Positions 1 to 10,184 are shown, numbered from the stretch's first letter. The stretch: 64,000 nucleotides of DNA from Dolomitihabitans soli (GCF_022213955.1 NZ_JAKNTW010000005.1:310001-374000), one strand, 5' to 3'. A program made the numbers and translations. The notes: generated by a model not told the origin, from the sequence alone.

Positions 1-931
1 TCTCCTCGGCGGGGAAGGCCAGTCCGGTATCCGGCTGACCGGTGTATTCCCCGTAGTAGTACACCTGGCCGGAGTTCCCGCGACACAGGATGATCTGTTT
101 GTTTGCGGTGCTGTAGGCGGCGACCAGTTCGGCGGTCTCCGATCTGGGCAGCATTTCGACCACGCGGTCTGGGCACCCAGGTGGACGAGCCTCTGGTTCG
201 ACCTGTGGCCCGGTGGTGGATAGATGCCGGAGGCCGGATGGGCGATTCGCCGAGATCAGCGAGGCGACGTAGGCGGAGAACATCAGCAGCACGAAGCAGA
301 TGACGAACGCTATGAGGCAGCCGGCGCACCCACTCACTGACGAGCCGCTGGATGGCCGGACGATTGGTGACGGCGGATGATATCCGCCGGCCGGTGGGTA
401 TCGGGCCGGTGGGGGATGACCGTACGGCGGTGTGCCGTACGGGGATACGGGTGGTCTGGGGCCCGTGGGCGGGGGGCCTGGTCGGAGAGGGGCGTATCCC
501 ATTCGTCCCCCTGCGCCGGCGGGGGGTGCGAAGAAGATGGCGCCATCCGATAGAGAGCGGGAAGGTACATGGGGCGTCGCCGCCGCGCCGCTGGTGGGCA
601 TCCCCGCGCCGGTGGATCTGACTCTCTCCGACGGCCTCTCTCTCCCGCTGAATCTCGTGCCGCTCCTGAACGGTGGAGTCGAAGGACCGTCATTCGGAAA
701 GACTTTCGTATGGTCGGTCGCGGCCTTCCGGTCGGTGTCGCATCCCTGGCAGTTGATCTCGCCGGGGTCATTCCACACATCACAGCGAAGGCATCGCCAT
801 GTCGGCCTGCGGGCTGGGTCGCCGCCGCCCGGATTTGGAGGACCCTGCCGTTCCTCGCACGCTTGGCAACGGCGGCGTTCCGCATCGTTGTAGGTATCGC
901 ATGATTTGCAGCGCCACGTGGCACCTGCCAC
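1..931 (-). CDS. Membrane protein with two RanBP2-type zinc fingers (partial, 3' end outside window)
   Basis: The frame opens at a GTG (complement of 929-931) behind a strong GGAAGGGG ribosome site and stays open to the left edge, at least 310 residues. Residues 6-25 and 45-64 each read W-x-C-x2-C-x3-N-x6-C-x2-C, the exact spacing of RanBP2-type zinc fingers. A long Pro/Gly/Tyr-rich linker (about 145-190) leads to one membrane segment (about 202-226) and then a probably extracytoplasmic domain containing an ELVAAYSTANKQIILC stretch. Topology with zinc fingers inside is inferred. It is the last gene visible in the leftward kinase/phosphatase/VWA operon, 20 bases after the preceding stop. Family knowledge: RanBP2 fingers bind RNA or ubiquitin in eukaryotes; their ligand here is unknown. 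Because it starts with GTG and is truncated it is easy to miss. Confidence 0.8.
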   Translation of the reverse strand, partial: MAGATWRCKSCDTYNDAERRRCQACEERQGPPNPGGGDPARRPTWRCLRCDVWNDPGEINCQGCDTDRKAATDHTKVFPNDGPSTPPFRSGTRFSGRERPSERVRSTGAGMPTSGAAATPHVPSRSLSDGAIFFAPPAGAGGRMGYAPLRPGPPPTGPRPPVSPYGTPPYGHPPPARYPPAGGYHPPSPIVRPSSGSSVSGCAGCLIAFVICFVLLMFSAYVASLISANRPSGLRHLSTTGPQVEPEARPPGCPDRVVEMLPRSETAELVAAYSTANKQIILCRGNSGQVYYYGEYTGQPDTGLAFPAEE

Positions 932-951
932 GATGATTCCCCTTCCAAGGA

Positions 952-1347
952 TCAACCGCAGTGTTCAGGGCACAGGAGTTTCCCGTGCAGGTCATCGATG
1001 AGTTCCTCGGTTTCGGACGACGGTTGGAAGCTGATCCAATGCTCGGTGTCCGGTACGGTCCGCGCTTGTGCACGAACCGTCAGCCAATGAGCCATCTCGC
1101 GGGCGTGCAAGGCCTGTTCGCGTTGCAGGAGAATTCGCAATGTGAGCATGTCACCCGATTGGAGCGACCTTTGTGGGCCGGCGGCAAAGCGCAGTATGAG
1201 CTGTATCGGCTCGGTCTCTCGGACATCGGCTGCGGCACACCACTCGCTGGGTAGTTCCAGGCATCCTCCACCGCGCCAGCGTACGGTGATCGATTCTCCG
1301 TCGTAGATCAGTCGCGCGTCGAGGCCTTCCACAACGGAAGCGGTCAC
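952..1347 (-). CDS. Unknown 131-residue protein in the VWA/kinase operon
   Basis: The GTG start (complement of 1345-1347) overlaps the stop of the VWA gene as GTGA, a typical translationally coupled junction. A longer open frame extends upstream but runs antisense-like through the VWA gene with no sensible composition, so the coupled GTG is preferred. The product is soluble, without signal peptide or membrane segment, and has a beta-rich centre (LIYDGESITVRWRGGG) followed by an amphipathic region around QREQALHAREMAHWLTV. I do not recognise the family. Its position between the VWA gene and the zinc-finger membrane protein suggests it is a partner or adaptor of that system, which is inference from context only. 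Confidence 0.7.
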   Translation of the reverse strand: MTASVVEGLDARLIYDGESITVRWRGGGCLELPSEWCAAADVRETEPIQLILRFAAGPQRSLQSGDMLTLRILLQREQALHAREMAHWLTVRAQARTVPDTEHWISFQPSSETEELIDDLHGKLLCPEHCG

Positions 1348-2051
1348 AAGCTGTTCACGATAGTGTTGATGATCTCGTCCATTTCCAGCTCCTCCAGGCC
1401 CAGGCCGGCCGTGGAGGGGAAGTGCATGGTCATGTTCCACTCCTCGGTGATATCGGTCCAGGGGTAGGCGTCGGGCGCGAAGAGCACGAGGCGCTTGGCT
1501 GAATTGTCCATCACGGCGGTCTGGCTTCTGGCATATCCCCACCGCTCGAAAAGTTCGTCCATGTCCCGGGGAATGTTCTGCGGATAGGTGTGGGCGGAGA
1601 CCGCTGCCGGCGTGCGAAGCGGATGAGCGGGCGCGTCGGTAAACATCACGATGACATGGCGACGCCGATCCAGTCCCGTCTCCCATGGTGCGTCGATGGC
1701 CAGGGAAAGGGCTTCCAGGCCGGACTCCGGGATATCGCCGCCCCCTGACGGATAGAGGCTGCGCACGAAAGTCTCGAATTCCGCTGACTGGTCGGGAAAA
1801 AGCAGGAAAGGGGTTTCCTGGATGGCATCCTCCGCGTAGTCGCCGAAATCGCGGAAGGCAATGAGCTTCAAGCGGAGCTGGGAGATTGCTTTACCCTTCT
1901 CCCGCATCACGAGGTTCAGCCTCTCGTGAAACATGACAGCGCTCTTCTTTACCGTGTCCAGAACGGGCATCATGCTGTCGGTCGCGTCGATGCAGAGCAC
2001 GATGTCCACCGCATACTGCAGATTTCCTTGATACTGCTCGGCGTGTGTCAT
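1344..2051 (-). CDS. VWA-domain protein of a kinase/PP2C/VWA triad
   Basis: Nearly the whole 235-residue protein is one von Willebrand A domain. The metal-ion-dependent adhesion site reads D22-x-T24-x-S26 within VLCIDATDSM, followed by an IAFRDFGDY strand, the GGGDIPESGLEAL segment and the later MFTDAP aspartate. The GGGDxPE signature is typical of VWA domains linked to protein kinases and of TerY-like proteins. The ATG overlaps the kinase stop (ATGA) and its own stop overlaps the next gene (GTGA), so VWA, kinase and phosphatase are tightly coupled. Known from the family: TerY-P triads (VWA, PP2C, kinase) are predicted phosphorylation switches tied to tellurite/stress and conflict systems. 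Direct equivalence here is inference, since no TerD or TerB is seen. Confidence 0.88.
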   Translation of the reverse strand: MTHAEQYQGNLQYAVDIVLCIDATDSMMPVLDTVKKSAVMFHERLNLVMREKGKAISQLRLKLIAFRDFGDYAEDAIQETPFLLFPDQSAEFETFVRSLYPSGGGDIPESGLEALSLAIDAPWETGLDRRRHVIVMFTDAPAHPLRTPAAVSAHTYPQNIPRDMDELFERWGYARSQTAVMDNSAKRLVLFAPDAYPWTDITEEWNMTMHFPSTAGLGLEELEMDEIINTIVNSL

Positions 2052-3028
2052 CGATGGTTCTCCTTTTTGTCGATGTTGATTCGCACTCGGGAAACTTTCG
2101 GTGTTACCGGTTTAGATTTTGTCGATTCTCTTCGGTGCAGCTCGCACACGTTCGGTTCTTTCAGCGTTTCCATGAAGGTTGCTATCTGTGGCCGGGCGTC
2201 AGGCGCCCGAGACGTCATCGCGCCCACTAGCTCTCGCATGGGATCACTCAGTCGGTGGTCGAGGTGCAATGTCGTACCGGCGTTGACGGCGTCGGCGGGC
2301 GATCCGAACCGTTCGTCGTAGCGTGGGACAGCCCCCGTGAGATAGTGATGCGCTAGTAATCCAAGGGCGAAGATGTCCACCTTGGTGGTCAGATAGCCGG
2401 CCAGCACGTCCGAGTCACTCTGCATGTACCGCCGCCACTCGGGAGCCCCGTACAGCGAGTCCCCCGCTATGTCCTCTCGTTCCGGAGGCTGTCGCGAGAC
2501 GTAGGCATCGTCGAAGTCGATGAGCTTGGCGGTGTAAAAGGCACCGCCCCCCTTGTTTTGTACCAGAACATTGGCCGGCTTCAGGTCCCCGTGTACCACG
2601 TCGATACCGTGTAGCAGGCCCACACTCAGTCCGAGGGTTCTCAGCAGCACGGCCTTCTGACCCGGGGTGAGTGACTGCGGCCGGTGCAGGTTTTCGGTGT
2701 CTATGCGCTCTGTGACCTTGTAGTAGGTGGTGCCGTCGTGAAAGAAGTCGAGGGCGAGGATGAGATTGCCCCCTCCGACCGTGTCGTACGACAGACGATT
2801 CATAATCATCTTGTGTCGCTGCTCGAATTCCTCACATGACTGCAGTCGCAGGCTCTTGCTGACCGTTGTCGCGGTTGAGCCCGGCTTGGGGCGTTTCGGG
2901 TCGAGGAAGCGCTTGATAAAATATTCGCGTCCGTTCTTCTCGGCAAAAGCCCACACGCATTTTCCGCCACCGTCGTTTGTTGGCTCGCTGGTTATGCGGT
3001 AGCCGCTGATGATGTCCCCAGCCTTCAT
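2048..3028 (-). CDS. Ser/Thr protein kinase of the VWA/PP2C triad
   Basis: A 326-residue soluble eukaryotic-like kinase. Visible motifs are the nucleotide-binding lysine K39 in YFIKRF, a helix-C glutamate near SCEEFEQ, the catalytic loop H146-G-D148-LKPAN, a metal-binding D171 in IDFDD, and YGAPEW for the APE motif. Thus HRD is HGD and DFG is DFD, but all residues needed for phosphotransfer remain. There is no membrane segment or PASTA domain, so it is unlike PknB. The C-terminal tail is basic and probably disordered. The start overlaps the phosphatase stop (ATGA) and its stop overlaps the VWA start. The likely job is phosphorylation of an operon partner, reversed by the adjacent PP2C (inference). 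Confidence 0.9.
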   Translation of the reverse strand: MKAGDIISGYRITSEPTNDGGGKCVWAFAEKNGREYFIKRFLDPKRPKPGSTATTVSKSLRLQSCEEFEQRHKMIMNRLSYDTVGGGNLILALDFFHDGTTYYKVTERIDTENLHRPQSLTPGQKAVLLRTLGLSVGLLHGIDVVHGDLKPANVLVQNKGGGAFYTAKLIDFDDAYVSRQPPEREDIAGDSLYGAPEWRRYMQSDSDVLAGYLTTKVDIFALGLLAHHYLTGAVPRYDERFGSPADAVNAGTTLHLDHRLSDPMRELVGAMTSRAPDARPQIATFMETLKEPNVCELHRRESTKSKPVTPKVSRVRINIDKKENHR

Positions 3029-4050
3029 CTCAACCCTTCATCGACGGGCGGCATGAGCTGTTCATAGTCCGATCGGTAGTAACTCCACGTGCGTGTCCGC
3101 CACTGCCGTACCGTTGCGGGATCGTCCCTCATCAGGGAATCGCGGGGCTGATAGCGCGTATCAATCTCCCGTGTGCGTGGGCCGAAACTTTCCCGGAGCT
3201 GTTCGAAGTCGGAGAAACCGAGCGCGGCGAGGCTGAGCGAGGCGTCGTCGCCCGAGTAGGACGATACCTGCCTGGCCAATCGTTCTGCCCATTCTCGTTG
3301 ATGGCCCGACACTTGGAGAGTGTTCAGAAGATGGCATTCGAAGTGGGCAGGCGTATCGACGTAGCCGTAGAAGCCGTCGGTGGCGCACACCAGTACGCAT
3401 GGCAGGTCGAGAAGTAGGACGTGCGAATCGATCGTGAAGTCCCGGTCGGCGCAAAGCACGTTGGTCAGCGGCGGATCCTGTAACAACTGCTCCAACCCAT
3501 CGGTCTCCACCGTGTGGTCCCGGGTCAGCGCCTGAAGGCCACTGCGAGGATTCAGCGCGTAGGCCCTTGAATCGCCCGCCCACAGAATCTGACATTCGGC
3601 CTGTTCGCCACTGAGGCGATAGCGGATGGCGGCCATCGTGGAAGGCAGGGATCTGCGCATGCTCCCGACAATCTTGCTACGGCCGAGCGGGCGCATTTCG
3701 GCCAGTAACTTTGCCAGATGGACCCGCAGCGATTGCGCTTCAAAGGAGGAGCGTTCGTTGACGCAGTGGCGGAACCAGGAGTCGACGCCGATCCTGGCCA
3801 CTCGCGCACCGATCCACGCACTGCTGCGGCGTGTCCCGTCGCGTGAGGTGTGGGCGATCTCAGCCCCTGAGCCGCCCAGCCCGTCGAAGACGCCCAGGAT
3901 GCCCTCGGCTGTCGGAATATGGTGGGCCAGCAGCGGTTCCGCGTCCTCTCCTCGTCCGGTGTTTCGCTCAGTCCACACCCCGATGGCCAGCACACCTTCC
4001 CCGTTGTGATGCCAGACCGTCCGTTGCGCACGTGTCGCGTCGTGGTTCAT
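3025..4050 (-). CDS. PP2C-type protein phosphatase of the triad
   Basis: 341 residues with the PP2C metal-binding motifs in order: an N-terminal acidic residue pair in GRGEDAEP, GVFDGLGGSG near residue 55, GDSRAYALN in the middle, CATDGFYGY, and a late SGDDASLSL. These are the aspartates that hold the two-metal centre of Mg/Mn-dependent phosphatases. It is cytosolic, without signal or membrane segment. It overlaps the preceding Band-7-like gene and the following kinase gene by four bases on each side. By family knowledge it removes phosphate from Ser/Thr; pairing with the kinase next door is the obvious inference. The last 60 residues are rich in Arg/Tyr/Asp and are not part of the standard fold. 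Confidence 0.9.
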   Translation of the reverse strand: MNHDATRAQRTVWHHNGEGVLAIGVWTERNTGRGEDAEPLLAHHIPTAEGILGVFDGLGGSGAEIAHTSRDGTRRSSAWIGARVARIGVDSWFRHCVNERSSFEAQSLRVHLAKLLAEMRPLGRSKIVGSMRRSLPSTMAAIRYRLSGEQAECQILWAGDSRAYALNPRSGLQALTRDHTVETDGLEQLLQDPPLTNVLCADRDFTIDSHVLLLDLPCVLVCATDGFYGYVDTPAHFECHLLNTLQVSGHQREWAERLARQVSSYSGDDASLSLAALGFSDFEQLRESFGPRTREIDTRYQPRDSLMRDDPATVRQWRTRTWSYYRSDYEQLMPPVDEGLR

Positions 4051-5201
4051 CCTTGCCCGCCGTCGGGCCGCTCATCTGGATATTCGGTCCTTGGCAGTGG
4101 GATGCCGCGCACTCTGCTGGGGCGCCGTTCGCCCTTCCGCTCGTGGAAATGGGTTCCGCCGACCGGTTCTTCGTCCGGCGGAGCTGCTGCCGGCCGTACG
4201 CGGTTCTCCGCTTTTGGGTCTTCTCGGTGAGCAGCGGGCGTGGGCTCTCGTGCCGCGCCCGCGTCCGGTTCTCCGGCGCTCGCGCCCATCCTGTCCTCGC
4301 CGGTGCCGATTCGGCCCGCCCTCGGGTGGGCCTCGCTCGCCGCGAGCGAGCTGCGGAGGCGGCTGGACCGGGTGCCTCCGAAGGGGGCGGCAGAGTCACC
4401 GACGAGGCGATCCCGAAGGGCGCGTTCTGCCTGGAGGAGTTCCCATGACTCGCGGTCGGCGTCCGAATGCTTCAATACGGCTTCCCACGCTCTGAGCAGT
4501 TCCGTGCGTTCGGCGCCTTCTGCGGCCGTGATCAACTCGTGCGCGGCGCGCGGACCCTCGCGTTCCATGATTTCGGCGATCAAGCCTTCCATGCCGTCCG
4601 CGCGCAGCATTTTCAGATGACGGTTGCGGCGCATGGCCATGAGCCGGGTATCGCGTTCGATATCGCGGTACGCGCGCCCGCTGGTGTGGATTTCGTCCTC
4701 ATCGACCAGCAGTTCCACGGAGATGTTGCGTAGCCGGATAGCCGAATCTCCGGTGAAGATGCGAATCGAATCGTTCAGTGCGTCCTCGGCGATGTGGAAC
4801 TCGCTGATATCGAAATTTCTGGATACCTTGCGGAGCATTTGCTGGATAGCCGGATAAAGGGCGGCGCTGACATCGCGAATTCTACGGTGCACGATCTCGT
4901 CGGGTGCCACCACGCGGCAGTTCAGCCTGATCAGGCTACGGAAGCCGAAGGCGGCGTCATTACTGAGAAGGGGGATCTCGAGCATGAGTCGATGCTCGCC
5001 GACATTGACCAGATATGATCGCTGGTAGGTGCCGTACCTCGCATCGATAATGGGTTCGCCGTGTCTGATTACAAGTGGCGTGCCATTGTGCGGGACGAGC
5101 ACCAGCGCGGTGCCCGGAGCGGGAGGGCGCAGTGGCTTCAGAAGCCTGAAGCGGGAGAGAATATGGCTCTCCATAATTGGATCATAGGTGAACGGTTGCA
5201 T
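4047..5201 (-). CDS. Unknown protein with Band-7/SPFH-like region and charged tail
   Basis: 384 residues. The first 190 are compact, with LVIRHGEPIIDARYGTYQRSYLVNV as start of a beta domain, then LIRLNCRVVAPDEIVHRR and AIQQMLRKVSRNFDISEF, which resemble the pattern of Band-7/SPFH proteins (weak similarity, by eye). Residues about 190-265 look helical. The last 110 residues are low-complexity and rich in Glu, Arg, Ala and Pro, so probably disordered. There is no transmembrane segment, unusual for SPFH proteins. The stop overlaps the phosphatase start as ATGA. A scaffold or sensor part of the same complex is a guess from context. Confidence 0.65.
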   Translation of the reverse strand: MQPFTYDPIMESHILSRFRLLKPLRPPAPGTALVLVPHNGTPLVIRHGEPIIDARYGTYQRSYLVNVGEHRLMLEIPLLSNDAAFGFRSLIRLNCRVVAPDEIVHRRIRDVSAALYPAIQQMLRKVSRNFDISEFHIAEDALNDSIRIFTGDSAIRLRNISVELLVDEDEIHTSGRAYRDIERDTRLMAMRRNRHLKMLRADGMEGLIAEIMEREGPRAAHELITAAEGAERTELLRAWEAVLKHSDADRESWELLQAERALRDRLVGDSAAPFGGTRSSRLRSSLAASEAHPRAGRIGTGEDRMGASAGEPDAGAAREPTPAAHREDPKAENRVRPAAAPPDEEPVGGTHFHERKGERRPSRVRGIPLPRTEYPDERPDGGQG

Positions 5202-5237
5202 AGTTATTGTCTTCCGGTCTGGGATGAGTAAGGTTAG

Positions 5238-7481
5238 TCATGCGGAATTCCGTAATGCGTGGTGAATTCGTGCCGCTGAGCCGGAGGGATTCTTCCCCGC
5301 ACGCGCCCAGCCGTCCAGGTAATAATCGAGGCGTTCCCGATGCCTTCCCGGCCGGGCGGCGACGGCGAGCAGGATGTCGTAGATATTGCTGAATGCCGTG
5401 CGATCGTGGTCAGCATATTTATCCAGATACTCGCGCAGCGCATCGAGCGCCTGAGTTTGTGCTGGTTTACGGGCCAGGGCGCGGGCCCAGAGTTCCACGA
5501 GTTGCGGGAGGTGTTCTCTGGCGTTGGCGAGCAGGAGGGGGAGTGGCGGGTCGCCAGGTGAGGATGCCGTCCAGGACAGGGCGCCCCCTCCGGGGTATTC
5601 TGCCGGCGCCGGTTGGCTGGCCATGAAGACGAAGGCCGACAGTGACTTCGTCACCATCGGAGAGGAATCCTGCGGCTCCGACCATGTGAGCAGGGCGGAC
5701 AGGACCTCGGAGGCACAGCCCTGCTCGATCAGATGCAGCAGGCTCCGGCCGACCGGTGGCAGGGTGCTCCAGTCCTCGCGGTCGAGCATTGTGCGCAGCG
5801 CCGTTGTGGCACGTGCCGGCTGCTGTGCCCCCAGCCAGCCGCCGAGCGTCGTGGCCGCGGTGAGAGACAGGCGTCGCTGAAAGGGCGTGTCCTTCTCCGC
5901 GACCCAGGATTCGAGCAGGACCCAGACGGCTTCTGCGAGATCGCGATTTCCGCCCACGACCCCCAGCGCTGTTGCGGCCCCCTGACGAAGCGCCGGGGAT
6001 TCGTTTCCCGCCCACTGCCTCAGGTAGCGGTTGACCGCGTGGGAGTGGTCACTCCAGGCGATCACTCCTGCGGCTACGGACGCCCGCGCCCGCACGTCGA
6101 TGTCCGGATGCGTCATCAATCGGCGTAGCCAGGCAAGCATCGTGGGCCGGTAACCGTCGAGATACGTCCACGCGTATCCCAAAATCGCCTGTTGTACGAG
6201 CGGGTTGACGAAGCGGACCCGTGGCAGTGCGCTGCCCTTGGTACGTCCGGTCTCCTCGGCGGTCACGGACACCTGGATCCACGGATGGTCGGATTCGAGC
6301 CGCTCTCGGAACCTCAAGTCCGCAGGTGAACCCGTATCCGGGGTCAACATGCCGTACAGCGTCATGGCGGCGTCGGACACGGTGAGATATGTCGCCTCCT
6401 CCAGCGTCGCCGCCGCCAGCGCGAAGCTCGTCACCTCCGGAGACCGGAACTGGCTAAACCAGGCGTGTACCTGATCGGTCGGATCCCGTAGCGACTCGAC
6501 CCCGGCCGCCAGGTCTCCGCCACTACGGATCACGGCGGCAAGGTGTACGGCGTTGCGCGGACGGGGAACTTCACGCAGCAGCTCCAGCGCGCGGGAATCG
6601 GCGAGCTTGCGGTGTAGTTCCGCAATTTCCTCTGGTGTTGGAGGGACGTCGAACGCGTGACTTTGCACGATGTGCACCGGGTCGACGAGGCCGAGCGAGG
6701 TCATGATGTGCCCAGACCGGGCAGCGGCCTCCACCAGCGTCCCGCGAGGAGGCCCCGTCACCAGGATCATGAAGCTCTTGCTCTCCTGGAGTATGGCCGC
6801 CGTGTCGTCGATCCACTGCTCGTCGATCGTGTCCATGGACAGACCCGCCGTACCCGAGGAGCCGTCGTCGAGTACCAGGAGATACCCGCTTCCTGCTGCT
6901 GGCCAGTTCGACCCGTCCAACGCCGACGAGTCGACGATGCGATAGCACTCACCTTCGGCGTGCGTCTTCAGCACTTCGGCCAGCAGGTTGAAACCCGTGG
7001 TCTTCCGCCCGCCCGGTGAGAGGGCCAGGATCAGCAATCCGCGATTGCGGAGGACGTCCAGCGCGTCGTCCCATCGGGGCGGCCGAAGGTAACTCTCGGT
7101 CCACCGAGCGAGCCGCTTCTTGTTGACCTTTATTGTCGTGTCGCCGGTACCCCGACTATGACCGGCCATGGTGAATCCACCGCCGATGCTGACGGAGTCG
7201 TTGAACAGCGCGAGCGTGTCGATCCGCACGCCCAGGGAGTCACGCTGTAACCGTTCGGTCACTCGGGCCGCGATGGCCGCCGCCTGGGCGGATTCGGCGT
7301 CGTCCGCTCCGCCGCGGCGCAGTGCCCGCAGCGCGTCTTTCTCGCTGAGCGGTGCATCATCGTCCGTTTCCGGGCGTGCTTCAGATGACTCCGCTTGGTC
7401 GGCAGCCTCCGGCTTCCTGCTGGACTCGTCGTCCCCCGCCGGAGAGCCTTGCTGTTTCAGCGGGCCGTCGATCTGGCTCAT
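5238..7481 (-). CDS. P-loop NTPase-like protein with HEAT-like repeats
   Basis: 747 residues. The first 75 are acidic and disordered. Next comes a short beta tract (VSIGGGFTMAGHSRGTGDTT) and a positively charged helix. The nucleotide fold begins near residue 145: LLILALSPGGRKTTGFNLLAE is placed like a Walker A but has R where the second Gly should be, keeping K-T-T. GYLLVLDDGSS is the Walker B. The C-terminal half (about 430-740) is alpha-helical with HEAT-like repeats (for example RARASVAAGVIAW and LRQGAATALGVVGG). The architecture resembles STAND-type signalling ATPases with a repeat sensor. Whether it binds ATP is uncertain because of the altered loop. It lies 24 bases after the SARP gene and 36 before the Band-7-like gene, in the same operon. 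Confidence 0.72.
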   Translation of the reverse strand: MSQIDGPLKQQGSPAGDDESSRKPEAADQAESSEARPETDDDAPLSEKDALRALRRGGADDAESAQAAAIAARVTERLQRDSLGVRIDTLALFNDSVSIGGGFTMAGHSRGTGDTTIKVNKKRLARWTESYLRPPRWDDALDVLRNRGLLILALSPGGRKTTGFNLLAEVLKTHAEGECYRIVDSSALDGSNWPAAGSGYLLVLDDGSSGTAGLSMDTIDEQWIDDTAAILQESKSFMILVTGPPRGTLVEAAARSGHIMTSLGLVDPVHIVQSHAFDVPPTPEEIAELHRKLADSRALELLREVPRPRNAVHLAAVIRSGGDLAAGVESLRDPTDQVHAWFSQFRSPEVTSFALAAATLEEATYLTVSDAAMTLYGMLTPDTGSPADLRFRERLESDHPWIQVSVTAEETGRTKGSALPRVRFVNPLVQQAILGYAWTYLDGYRPTMLAWLRRLMTHPDIDVRARASVAAGVIAWSDHSHAVNRYLRQWAGNESPALRQGAATALGVVGGNRDLAEAVWVLLESWVAEKDTPFQRRLSLTAATTLGGWLGAQQPARATTALRTMLDREDWSTLPPVGRSLLHLIEQGCASEVLSALLTWSEPQDSSPMVTKSLSAFVFMASQPAPAEYPGGGALSWTASSPGDPPLPLLLANAREHLPQLVELWARALARKPAQTQALDALREYLDKYADHDRTAFSNIYDILLAVAARPGRHRERLDYYLDGWARAGKNPSGSAARIHHALRNSA

Positions 7482-7505
7482 GCGCCTTCCGCCTTCGAGA
7501 GGGAC

Positions 7506-8759
7506 TCAGGAGATGTTGAAGTCGCCCGAGATGGTCACGGGTGCGTGGTAGACGGCGGCGGTCTTGATCGTGTTGGCGACGATCGCGGGTCCGCTGGCCG
7601 CCTGCTTGGCTGTGTGCGCCTGGTCGACCAGGCGCGTGATGTCCTCGAAGAAGGCCAGGTCACGTATGAGGTGCATGATGAGCACGCGCTCCAGGGCGGT
7701 GACCGCGACCACGTCGGCAGGATTCAGTTCGACCTGCGCAAGCGTGCCTTGTGCTGCCAGGTCACCATGGAATCGAGTGCGCACGCGTTCGATCAGAGGA
7801 GCCGACGGGCTCAACCATGCGGCCCCAATCCCCTTCGAGTTGCCCTTCCTGGCGCCCTCCGCCACGAGGCGGGCGGCATGCCTCCCGACCTCGTCAGGTG
7901 ATCGGGATTCGGTTCTGGAGCCGGAGGGATCATCGGTATCCGCTGCGGAGCCGGAACCGGCGGCAGTGAATCGGTTAGCATCGATGGGCAGGTCAAGGCC
8001 AGGGTCACGCTGGAGAATGCGTTGGTGGAATCGCTCGATATCCGCGCCAGGATCGGCCCCGATCTCCTCGGCCAGTCGTGTCCGCAAGCCCGAGAAGGCG
8101 GCCAGGGCTTCAGCCGAGCGGCCAGCGCGGTAATAGGCCAGCATGAGCAGAGCCGTCACTTGCTCGTCGGGCGGTCCAGCAGCGGTGAGATCCAGCAGTT
8201 CGGGGATGAGTCGCGTATGGAGGCCAAGCCGTAGCTCGGCTTCCATACAGTCGATCACTGCGGCGCGGTGCTCCTCCTGCAGATTGTGACGATGGTTGAG
8301 CGCCCACTGGCCGGTCACGTCGTTGAGTGGTTCGCCGACCCGCAGCCCAGGGGTTCCCCACTGACTGAGGGCGTCGCGGAGGGTTCGCACGGCTCGGGCG
8401 TCGTCGTGGCGAATCAGCGGTTGAGCGGTGCTCACCAAGTCGCGGAATCGGTGCAAGTCGACCTGGTCACGACTGGCCAGCAGTCGGTATCCGCCATCGT
8501 GTTTGGGCAGCAGGTCGGTGGATCCGGATACGGTTCTGCCCAGATGGCCGCGCAGTTCGCTCATGTAGTGGTGGATGACCTTGCGTGCGCTGGCTATCGG
8601 CTCGTTGCCCCAAACCTTGTCGATCAACTGTTCCATGGGGACCGGCCGCGACTCCGCCAGCAGGAGTATGGCCAGTACCAAGCGTTGCTTCCGGTCACCG
8701 AGGTGAATCCACACCCCCTCGCTGTAAGCCGCCACACCACTCAGCAATCGAAACTGCAT
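7506..8759 (-). CDS. SARP/AfsR-type regulator (OmpR-like HTH + BTAD)
   Basis: The ATG at 8757-8759 sits six bases behind AGAAGGGA and begins MQFRLLSG, the usual opening of SARP proteins; a start 12 codons earlier is less likely. The first 95 residues are a winged-helix domain (RLVLAILLLAES, VIHHYMSELRGHLG), followed by a bacterial transcriptional activator domain to about 255 (AVIDCMEAELRLG, ALLMLAYYRAGRSAEALAAF). The remaining 160 residues are unusual for a SARP and end in a beta-like tail, VYHAPVTISGDFNIS. It is the promoter-proximal gene of the operon that runs to position 1, so it probably controls it. The C-terminal extension may receive a signal from the complex (inference). Confidence 0.85.
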   Translation of the reverse strand: MQFRLLSGVAAYSEGVWIHLGDRKQRLVLAILLLAESRPVPMEQLIDKVWGNEPIASARKVIHHYMSELRGHLGRTVSGSTDLLPKHDGGYRLLASRDQVDLHRFRDLVSTAQPLIRHDDARAVRTLRDALSQWGTPGLRVGEPLNDVTGQWALNHRHNLQEEHRAAVIDCMEAELRLGLHTRLIPELLDLTAAGPPDEQVTALLMLAYYRAGRSAEALAAFSGLRTRLAEEIGADPGADIERFHQRILQRDPGLDLPIDANRFTAAGSGSAADTDDPSGSRTESRSPDEVGRHAARLVAEGARKGNSKGIGAAWLSPSAPLIERVRTRFHGDLAAQGTLAQVELNPADVVAVTALERVLIMHLIRDLAFFEDITRLVDQAHTAKQAASGPAIVANTIKTAAVYHAPVTISGDFNIS

Positions 8760-8940
8760 CGCTCGTCCCTTCTGACCTTGCGTTGGATGTGTCATACAGC
8801 ACGCGTGACCCGTCCTGCAGAGTTGCTATGGCAGACCTACAGCACGGCACCCAGCGGATAACCGAGTCGACCGCCCAGCGCGGTATTCGATCCTTATTTC
8901 CATCGGGCGGCACAAGGCCCCCTCGAAGGACAGGAGAAGG

Positions 8941-9156
8941 ATGATGGGTACTGCAAAGGAAAATCAGCCACAGCGCGGATGGTTCAAGGCGACCTTCAGC
9001 GACAACGGCGGCGGTTGCGTCGAGGTCGCCCTTGGCGAGAACTTGGTCGCGGTTCGTGACTCCAAGGACCCCAGGGGGCCTGTGCTCTACTTCAATGACC
9101 AGGAGTGGGGCGCGTTCATTGCCGGCGTCTGTGCGGGGGAGTTCGACCTGAGGTGA
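8941..9156 (+). CDS. DUF397 protein
   Basis: A 71-residue protein with the DUF397 pattern: GWFKATFSDNGGGCVEVAL, then VAVRDSKDPRGPVLYFNDQEWGAFIAGV. Two ATGs are adjacent (8941 and 8944); the AGGAG at 8932-8936 fits the second slightly better. In actinomycetes DUF397 proteins work with XRE/DUF5753 regulators such as WhiJ-type partners in development or antibiotic control. Here the partner regulator is encoded next door but on the opposite strand, converging on this gene, rather than in the usual tandem order. Confidence 0.9.
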   Translation: MMGTAKENQPQRGWFKATFSDNGGGCVEVALGENLVAVRDSKDPRGPVLYFNDQEWGAFIAGVCAGEFDLR

Positions 9157-9287: not shown

Positions 9288-10184
9288 TCACTGGGCAGTG
9301 GCTCTGAGGTCGGCGCTGAGCGTGGCGAGGAACTCCCGCGCCTCGTCGTTGAACACCGCCGTCTCGCTCAGCAGCGACCATTGCCGCTGATAGATGGCGA
9401 TGTCCTCGGCGTTGTTCGCGGTCAACCTGACATGTGTCGTCTCTACCTCGACAAAAGTGTCTCCGGCGCTGCCGTCGCTCTCGTAGACGATGAAACCGTG
9501 CGGCGGGCAGACGACCGCTTCCCTGTTGTGCGGTATTAACCCGACGGAGATGTTTTCCAATGTGCTCAGTGATGCTATTCGGTCCAACTGGGCTACCAGG
9601 AGTTTGAGTGGTCCGGGCCGGCACCTCAGGGCTGCCTCCGTAATGAGAAATTCGAAACGCCGGCTTTCCTCATACAGTGCGAGTTGGCGCTGCAAACGAC
9701 CGGCGATGGCCATGGCCAGGTCACCGTCGGAGTACGGCGGGTCGAAGAGGGAGAAGATCCGCCGGGCGTACTCTGCGGTTTGCAACAGTCCGGGGATGAG
9801 CGTGGGCTGGAAAACACGCACGATCTTTGCTTGATCTTCTTGATCCCGGATGTCGTCCTGAAGGTGGGCTTGACCTTGCAGCGCGTCCCGCCACGTGTGC
9901 ACCTCGGTGAACGCCGCCTCGGTTGTGTCCGTCAGCCACGCCCGAGTCTGATCGGAGGCACCCACAGCTTCGGCCCATGCCGTTACCTGCGGTAGTGAGG
10001 GGATCACGGTTCCAGACTCGATGCGTGAGACCTTGGACTGGCTGATTCCGATCCGGTGGGCCAGATCACGCCCTGAGATACCGGCCAGGTCGCGCAGGCG
10101 CCGAAGCTCCATTGCGAGACGCTGCCGCTTGGTGCCCTGTCCCCCTCCGTCACCTGCGGGTATGTTCATCGCTTCGCCCCCCAT
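9288..10184 (-). CDS. XRE-family regulator with DUF5753 domain (DUF397 partner)
   Basis: 298 residues. Residues about 20-75 form a helix-turn-helix (LRDLAGISGRDLAHRIGISQSKVSRIESG). The rest is a DUF5753 ligand-binding-like domain with LIPGLLQTAEYARRIF and PHGFIVYESDGSAGDTFVEVE. The first ATG is used here; a second one five codons in, MNIPAG, is equally possible. By family precedent the protein binds DNA and is modulated by the small DUF397 protein encoded at 8941-9156, with which it converges. Confidence 0.9.
   Translation of the reverse strand: MGGEAMNIPAGDGGGQGTKRQRLAMELRRLRDLAGISGRDLAHRIGISQSKVSRIESGTVIPSLPQVTAWAEAVGASDQTRAWLTDTTEAAFTEVHTWRDALQGQAHLQDDIRDQEDQAKIVRVFQPTLIPGLLQTAEYARRIFSLFDPPYSDGDLAMAIAGRLQRQLALYEESRRFEFLITEAALRCRPGPLKLLVAQLDRIASLSTLENISVGLIPHNREAVVCPPHGFIVYESDGSAGDTFVEVETTHVRLTANNAEDIAIYQRQWSLLSETAVFNDEAREFLATLSADLRATAQ

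Follow-up and report, generated by a model that had tools for sequence, protein, structure and literature searches.

The window analysed here, a stretch of 64,000 nucleotides within the 10.8 Mb genome of Dolomitihabitans soli (G000:C56:310001-374000; NZ_JAKNTW010000005.1), carries at its left end an operon of eight leftward genes which appears to be a bacterial alarm system of a kind not yet described; literature searches, thin on subscription journals, found no paper describing it. From first gene to last, the operon encodes a SARP regulator, a protein with an NTPase-like domain followed by HEAT repeats (the HEAT protein), an SPFH (Band 7) protein, a PP2C-type phosphatase, a Ser/Thr kinase, a VWA protein, a small protein of about 131 residues and a zinc-finger membrane protein (Table 1). 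Eight mostly overlapping genes had been predicted originally from the sequence, and overlaps of 4 nt were found at five of the seven junctions. The last gene is complete only beyond the left edge of the window, where its full open reading frame (ORF; 360 aa, L003:1873-2955) ends 127 bp to the left. The SARP is more likely to start at a later Met (8759) than at 8795, since its relatives begin at the second Met. Among the eight proteins, Pfam confirmed the BTAD/Trans_reg_C, kinase, VWA_4 and HEAT domains and returned weak RanBP-type zinc ribbons, with no match for PP2C or Band 7; the PP2C identity predicted for the fourth gene was upheld by NCBIfam and by conserved metal-site Asp residues.

Close relatives of the HEAT protein (41-59% identity) are encoded in five further genomes of the family, one from each of five other genera, and the order slot 1-HEAT-SPFH-PP2C-kinase-VWA-zinc finger, in which slot 1 denotes the position held here by the SARP gene, is kept in all five, with components at 40-77% identity. 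Named genomes were scanned with the VWA alignment, yielding 67 loci to which component hidden Markov models (HMMs) were then applied. By these models, about 45 of the 67 loci carry the order from slot 1 to VWA, and they span Nonomuraea, Actinomadura, Streptomyces, Nocardiopsis, Amycolatopsis, Crossiella, Actinokineospora and Parafrankia; a RanBP2-like zinc-finger pattern was present in the downstream gene at 51 of 61 loci. The expectation that actinomycetes keep the gene order was thus borne out, and rare co-occurrence of these genes is refuted. Of 395 genomes sampled from the class, only 8-9 gave strong VWA matches, and the cassette is therefore patchy. The G+C content of the operon is 63%, as compared to 70% for the remaining window (7 points lower), in agreement with the compositional difference noted at the outset; transfer is probable, and the operon is best described as a horizontally spread signalling cassette.

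The AlphaFold2 (AF2) model of the HEAT protein (pLDDT 86, pTM 0.82) has the architecture of STAND proteins, a P-loop NTPase-like domain and then helical repeats. The NTPase-like domain of the model (residues 113-341) aligns with TRIP13/PCH-2. A fold search with the whole model returned mostly HEAT repeats, and its alignment with the Avs5 STAND filament gave a Z score of 9.3 over 399 residues (root mean square deviation 9.3), a Z score of a size that is not decisive for helical repeats. In one relative, nSTAND3 scored above the cut-off. The Walker A motif is degenerate: its Lys is absent from 41 of 41 relatives, being Arg in 40 and Gln in one, and the Ser/Thr that follows is mostly glutamate among the relatives. 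The same Arg is found in distant relatives (branch B, below) wherever the motif is readable. Because the Lys is replaced and the next Ser/Thr is mostly glutamate, the HEAT protein is classed by its motifs as a pseudo-STAND protein, predicted not to hydrolyze ATP. Of the earlier description as a STAND-like ATPase, the likeness to STAND proteins stands (nSTAND3 in a relative, the Avs5 alignment), and the ATPase part falls with the Walker A Lys.

Slot 1 is exchangeable. In the window genome, as in Nonomuraea, Actinomadura and others, it encodes a SARP with a helical C-terminal extension, as had been predicted; the SARP is, however, only one of its occupants. Streptomyces and Nocardiopsis have the helical domain alone, whereas Lentzea, Crossiella, Amycolatopsis and Actinokineospora have a TIR domain (Pfam TIR_2 2.9e-8), and a domain that looks cyclase-like by eye, on which Pfam is silent, fills the slot in Amycolatopsis decaplanina, L104. 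The SARP HMM matches the stand-alone helical slot-1 proteins at about 85-107 bits. The Streptomyces forms consist of a small helical domain with a hydrophobic N-terminal helix; their match to DUF6082 is weak, and they are Bell-like by description only.

The slot-1 protein and the HEAT protein carry matching short tags, the former at its C-terminus and the latter near its N-terminus, in a stretch modeled with pLDDT below 50 (residues 86-111); an example pair is VFNEKVEIQGDWNIS at the end of slot 1 with LFNDSVSIGGGF in the HEAT protein. The tag motif was detected in 42 of 47 slot-1 tails (0.2 in shuffled sequences) and 37 of 47 HEAT N-termini (0.8 expected). The regular expression used is not fully specific, as it also matches 55 of 73 VWA proteins, probably at a conserved VIAFRDF stretch; on the N-termini of PP2C, kinase and SPFH proteins it gave one match in 191. 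At loci of the window's own kind (branch A), alignment of slot-1 tail with HEAT protein scored 30.9 for cognate and 28.2 for non-cognate pairs (p=2.5e-4), and 19.9 for shuffled tails. This preference persisted when loci were thinned by VWA identity to 31, 24, 19 and 13 (p<=0.0067), a procedure after which relatedness partly remains. The tag shared between an exchangeable effector and a pseudo-STAND protein would appear, from the sequences, to be the organizing principle of the operon.

HEAT relatives at 25-30% led to a parallel system (branch B). Of 15 such loci, six encode HEAT, SPFH, PP2C, kinase and VWA proteins in the same order, in most cases preceded by a gene of cyclase-like appearance. 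The branch-B VWA matches PF00092/VWA_2 and is TerY-like by eye; neither it nor the branch-B PP2Cs were detected by the branch-A HMMs, and the kinases of the two branches are related at fold level only (hhalign probability 91%). Because its VWA, PP2C and kinase are not orthologous to those of branch A, the sequences indicate two separate assemblies, in which the same kind of switch is coupled to one core through non-orthologous parts. Branch-B tags are longer and strongly divergent among loci, yet match within each pair, for example GNVEIPGQRSQNSFGNQVGGDY with GDVHIAGDESMNAFGNTVDGDL (L051) and VVNAPGRDQVI with TVNAPGRDQYI (L053). Cognate pairs scored a mean of 59.0 against 32.6 (standard deviation 3.1), and none of 50,000 permutations scored as high, a result that stands despite doubtful slot-1 calls in L041, L049 and L050. 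Overlapping reading frames were considered as a cause of the match and rejected, the two tags being encoded well apart. The SPFH tails of several branch-B loci (L039, L040, L042, L046) end in Trp peptides of their own (GWVRF, or W-x-P-x-P-W type), which recall the way in which the branch-A protein of about 131 residues ends in DWISF.

The catalytic and metal-binding residues of the branch-A switch proteins are conserved throughout. Kinase residues K39, D148 (HGD), N153 and D171 (DFD) are invariant in 66 of 66 relatives; the metal-motif Asp residues of the PP2C are invariant in the 63-65 relatives that cover those positions; and the VWA protein has an intact DxTxS metal ion-dependent adhesion site (MIDAS) plus GGGDxPE, the MIDAS D, T and S and one more D being shared by all 72 of the 72 sequences. 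With these key residues invariant, all three proteins are expected to be active. The best Pfam match of the VWA protein is VWA_4 (6e-10, versus 0.002 for VWA_2 and 0.09 for VWA), consistent with a VWA_4-type rather than a TerY-type domain. After the kinase domain, Pfam found no further domain, neither a zinc ribbon nor an OB fold; there is instead a low-complexity tail with SRVRIN.

A related peptide is found in the tail of the SPFH protein. In the AF2 model of this protein the core is confident and the tail disordered, and all 23 PDB matches obtained with Foldseek at E<=0.001 were SPFH proteins or complexes thereof (prohibitin, HflK/C, stomatin, flotillin, QmcA); on the strength of this model, the Band-7-like protein of the original prediction is assigned an SPFH fold. 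Among the C-terminal 80 residues, the motif SR[VLI]R occurs in 54 of 63 kinases (shuffled mean 0.8) and 52 of 55 SPFH proteins (shuffled mean 0.5), and the same scan found it in no tail of a HEAT, PP2C or VWA protein. In kinases it usually reads SRVRINLG and in SPFH proteins SRVRG, the rest of both tails being poorly conserved, and it probably serves for docking or is phosphorylated. The zinc-finger protein at the end of the operon comprises two RanBP2-type zinc fingers, a Pro-rich linker, one transmembrane segment and an outer C-terminal part. The protein of about 131 residues encoded before it is beta-rich by eye and has a DxWISFxP-like motif at its C-terminus; a regular expression for this gene matched at 10 of 62 loci, which was too strict, and presence was then checked by inspecting sequences.

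Table 1 Features of the operon and its right-hand neighbors, in window coordinates.
Feature	Position	Strand	Basis or remark
SARP slot-1 effector gene (winged helix + BTAD, helical extension, C-terminal tag)	7506-8795	-	Pfam Trans_reg_C 1.9e-7, BTAD 1.5e-32
Helical extension of SARP	7581-7874	-	homologous to stand-alone Streptomyces slot-1 proteins of ~131 aa
Slot-1 C-terminal tag NTIKTAAVYHAPVTISGDFNIS	7509-7574	-	motif in 42/47 slot-1 tails
Predicted pseudo-STAND NTPase-like domain + HEAT repeats, 747 aa	5238-7481	-	HEAT_2 (Pfam)
HEAT N-terminal tag IDTLALFNDSVSIGGGFTM	7167-7223	-	stretch of low predicted order
Degenerate Walker A SPGGRKTT, Lys to Arg	6996-7034	-	comparison with 41 relatives
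SPFH (Band 7) protein, soluble, long disordered tail	4047-5201	-	AF2 + Foldseek
SRVRG peptide, SPFH tail	4104-4118	-	SR[VLI]R motif
PP2C-type phosphatase, divergent	3025-4050	-	NCBIfam 9e-5, metal-site Asp
Ser/Thr kinase, HGD type, with tail peptide	2048-3028	-	Pfam 8e-20
SRVRINI peptide, kinase C-terminus	2072-2092	-	SR[VLI]R motif
VWA protein, VWA_4 type	1344-2051	-	Pfam 6.1e-10
~131 aa protein	952-1347	-	counterparts between VWA and zinc-finger gene in relatives inspected
RanBP2-type zinc-finger membrane protein	1-955, continues past window edge	-	Zn_ribbon_RanBP 6e-4, below cut-off
Probable transmembrane segment of zinc-finger protein (approximate)	260-331	-	sequence; weak CYSTM match, residues 186-223
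DUF397-like small gene (named by eye), possible accessory	8941-9156	+	same gene beside cassette in several relatives
HTH_31/DUF5753 regulator, possible accessory	9288-10184	-	Pfam 2.8e-38; recurrent upstream neighbor

Parts of this arrangement are reminiscent of described systems. In NLR amyloid signalosomes (BASS, Bell; Dyrka 2020; review, PMC7889193), matching motifs lie at the effector C-terminus and the receptor N-terminus, and the effectors are sometimes TIR proteins. The operon resembles them in its adjacent genes, in the placement of its tags, in the TIR effector and small helical effector domain of slot 1 and in its filamentous hosts, a likeness that for the tags rests on layout and sequence match, their amyloid state being putative. 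It differs in a receptor whose P-loop is degenerate by motif, in the added kinase/PP2C/VWA switch and in the SPFH partner. VMAP and iSTAND MoxR-vWA ternary systems (Kaur 2020, 2021) share with it a vWA, an inactive STAND module, Band-7 and HEAT parts and the principle of an effector-associated adaptor. A MoxR-type AAA ATPase was, however, found neither among the eight genes (Pfam) nor recognized among the adjoining ORFs, and the NTP-dependent switching of those systems would here come from the kinase/phosphatase pair. Actinobacterial kinase-PP2C-stand-alone vWA triads also form the third theme of GAP1-N2 GTPase-centric systems (Kaur 2020, PMC7159879) and are likewise linked to a conflict system. 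A connection to that theme was rejected: GAP1-N2 (PF20013) has no match in the window genome, and the sampled GAP1-N2 loci lack the operon's PP2C and VWA.

From the sequence we infer a direction of signaling, an order of events and contact between tags, as follows. The zinc-finger membrane protein and the SPFH scaffold would sense or localize a disturbance, taken to be the trigger. VWA, kinase and PP2C would act as a reversible phosphorylation switch, with the SRVR tails of kinase and SPFH protein holding it together, and this switch would release or cluster the pseudo-STAND protein and so expose its N-terminal tag. Pairing of that tag with the like C-terminal tag of the slot-1 protein would then concentrate or activate the latter; with the SARP in slot 1, the output would be transcription, and with the TIR or cyclase-like proteins of relatives it would be enzymatic or suicidal. 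The chances are evenly balanced that the operon encodes such an NLR-like signalosome, switched by phosphorylation instead of ATP hydrolysis and tag-paired to an exchangeable effector. Held more tentatively, and somewhat short of even, is the wider proposal of a class of NLR-like alarm complexes in which the receptor's ATP switch was lost and replaced by one made of kinase, phosphatase and VWA, built at least twice independently around one effector-tag/pseudo-STAND/SPFH core, and in which homotypic tags diversify per locus and the slot accepts a SARP, TIR, cyclase-like or helical domain as a plug-in. If this is true, NLR-like signalosomes in bacteria are driven by the phosphorylation of proteins, and a transcription factor is one of their exchangeable outputs. 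Two separate lines of research, on homotypic NLR-like receptor-effector tags and on TerY-P-type phosphorylation triads, would be joined, and the two assemblies from different parts would constitute a natural experiment on which components are essential.

Several observations weigh against this interpretation. The cognate preference in branch A is slight, and at several loci a foreign partner gives the better match; the tags could be linkers or dimerization strands rather than amyloid-like. The immediate neighbors of the operon in this genome resemble ordinary chromosomal genes, and PADLOC matched kinase models only among the operon's proteins, with no listed defense system. A PHROGs search gave nothing useful.

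Of the other explanations, a strict TerY-P system, serving metal or tellurite stress or acting as a stand-alone antiphage triad amid unrelated neighbors, is very improbable. TerY-P triads (Anantharaman 2012; Gao 2020) combine a TerY-like VWA with a kinase to which a zinc ribbon or an OB fold is fused (PMC11090510). The operon shares with them the three enzyme types, encoded in a row and linked to conflict systems; bare triads of its VWA family exist on a Herpetosiphon plasmid and in Mycobacterium, and the TerY-like look of the branch-B VWA also speaks for this explanation. The operon's VWA is nevertheless of VWA_4 type by its best Pfam match, its kinase ends in SRVR rather than a zinc ribbon or OB fold, and its triad is strictly coupled to the slot-1 effector, pseudo-STAND and SPFH core. 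TerD is absent from the whole genome (the control was positive in two genomes), no ter genes adjoin the operon, and membership in a ter operon beyond the window was rejected, as P-type ATPase and xdh genes lie there. The triad would work like TerY-P, but it was not assigned to that group because the kinase fusion and the ter linkage are missing. The TerY-P-like triad originally proposed thus stands as a row of VWA, PP2C and kinase, not in the type of its kinase and probably not in that of its VWA, and its attachment to a membrane protein and a STAND-like protein rather than to TerD/TerB is supported. Each domain type of the operon is common in actinomycetes, as would suit unrelated signaling genes that are adjacent by chance; with the genes overlapping and their order conserved at about 50 loci in several families, that explanation is refuted, and its probability is negligible.

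A regulatory operon for development, envelope stress or specialized metabolism, in which the triad controls the SARP with no attack or cell death, is rather unlikely. It would account for a SARP as the output in the window genome, given that this family is known to activate antibiotic clusters, for the helical domain without known toxic activity in slot 1 of most Streptomyces loci and for an HTH/DUF5753-DUF397 pair recurrent upstream. It is at odds with the TIR and cyclase-like replacements in the same slot, with the diversified tags, with the patchy spread and with the EAD2 conflict-system protein beside some Actinomadura copies. Because of these same features, and of precedent (PMC7159879, PMC11090510, PMC7889193), a role in defense is considered likely and is favored over plain regulation.

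Further observations concern the surroundings of the cassette. The DUF397-like gene and the HTH_31/DUF5753 regulator recur by it in L034, L037, L054, L055, L058, L059 and L111. Near an Actinomadura cassette, EAD2 lies at the C-terminus of a protein encoded on the opposite strand (L036:6050-6961; 4.8e-18), whose sequence cluster has further members in L058, L059 and L080 and supplies the slot-1 protein of L104. Two Streptomyces loci without slot 1 and HEAT genes have a protein that looks FHA-like by eye, not confirmed as such by Pfam, before PP2C or SPFH (L076:6905-7804 and L097:6215-7003). Outside the cassette, bare VWA-PP2C-kinase triads with a VWA of this family are present in L161 (the Herpetosiphon plasmid), L119 (Mycobacterium barrassiae) and L152, and a Calothrix plasmid (L160) has a bare triad in the order VWA-kinase-PP2C; VWA copies in Nonomuraea soli and Frankiaceae (L115, L117, L118, L120) have no PP2C and kinase of this family adjoining.

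To the left of the window, the zinc-finger gene is followed by a convergent P-type ATPase gene and then by xdh (xanthine-dehydrogenase-like) genes. A 300-bp direct repeat, 99% identical between its copies (L002:13743-14042 and L002:19403-19702), lies just left of the window, with the P-type ATPase gene between the copies. The repeat corresponds to the 3' end of a xanthine-dehydrogenase-like gene, its second copy stops about 170 bp from the operon, and it looks like an insertion footprint.

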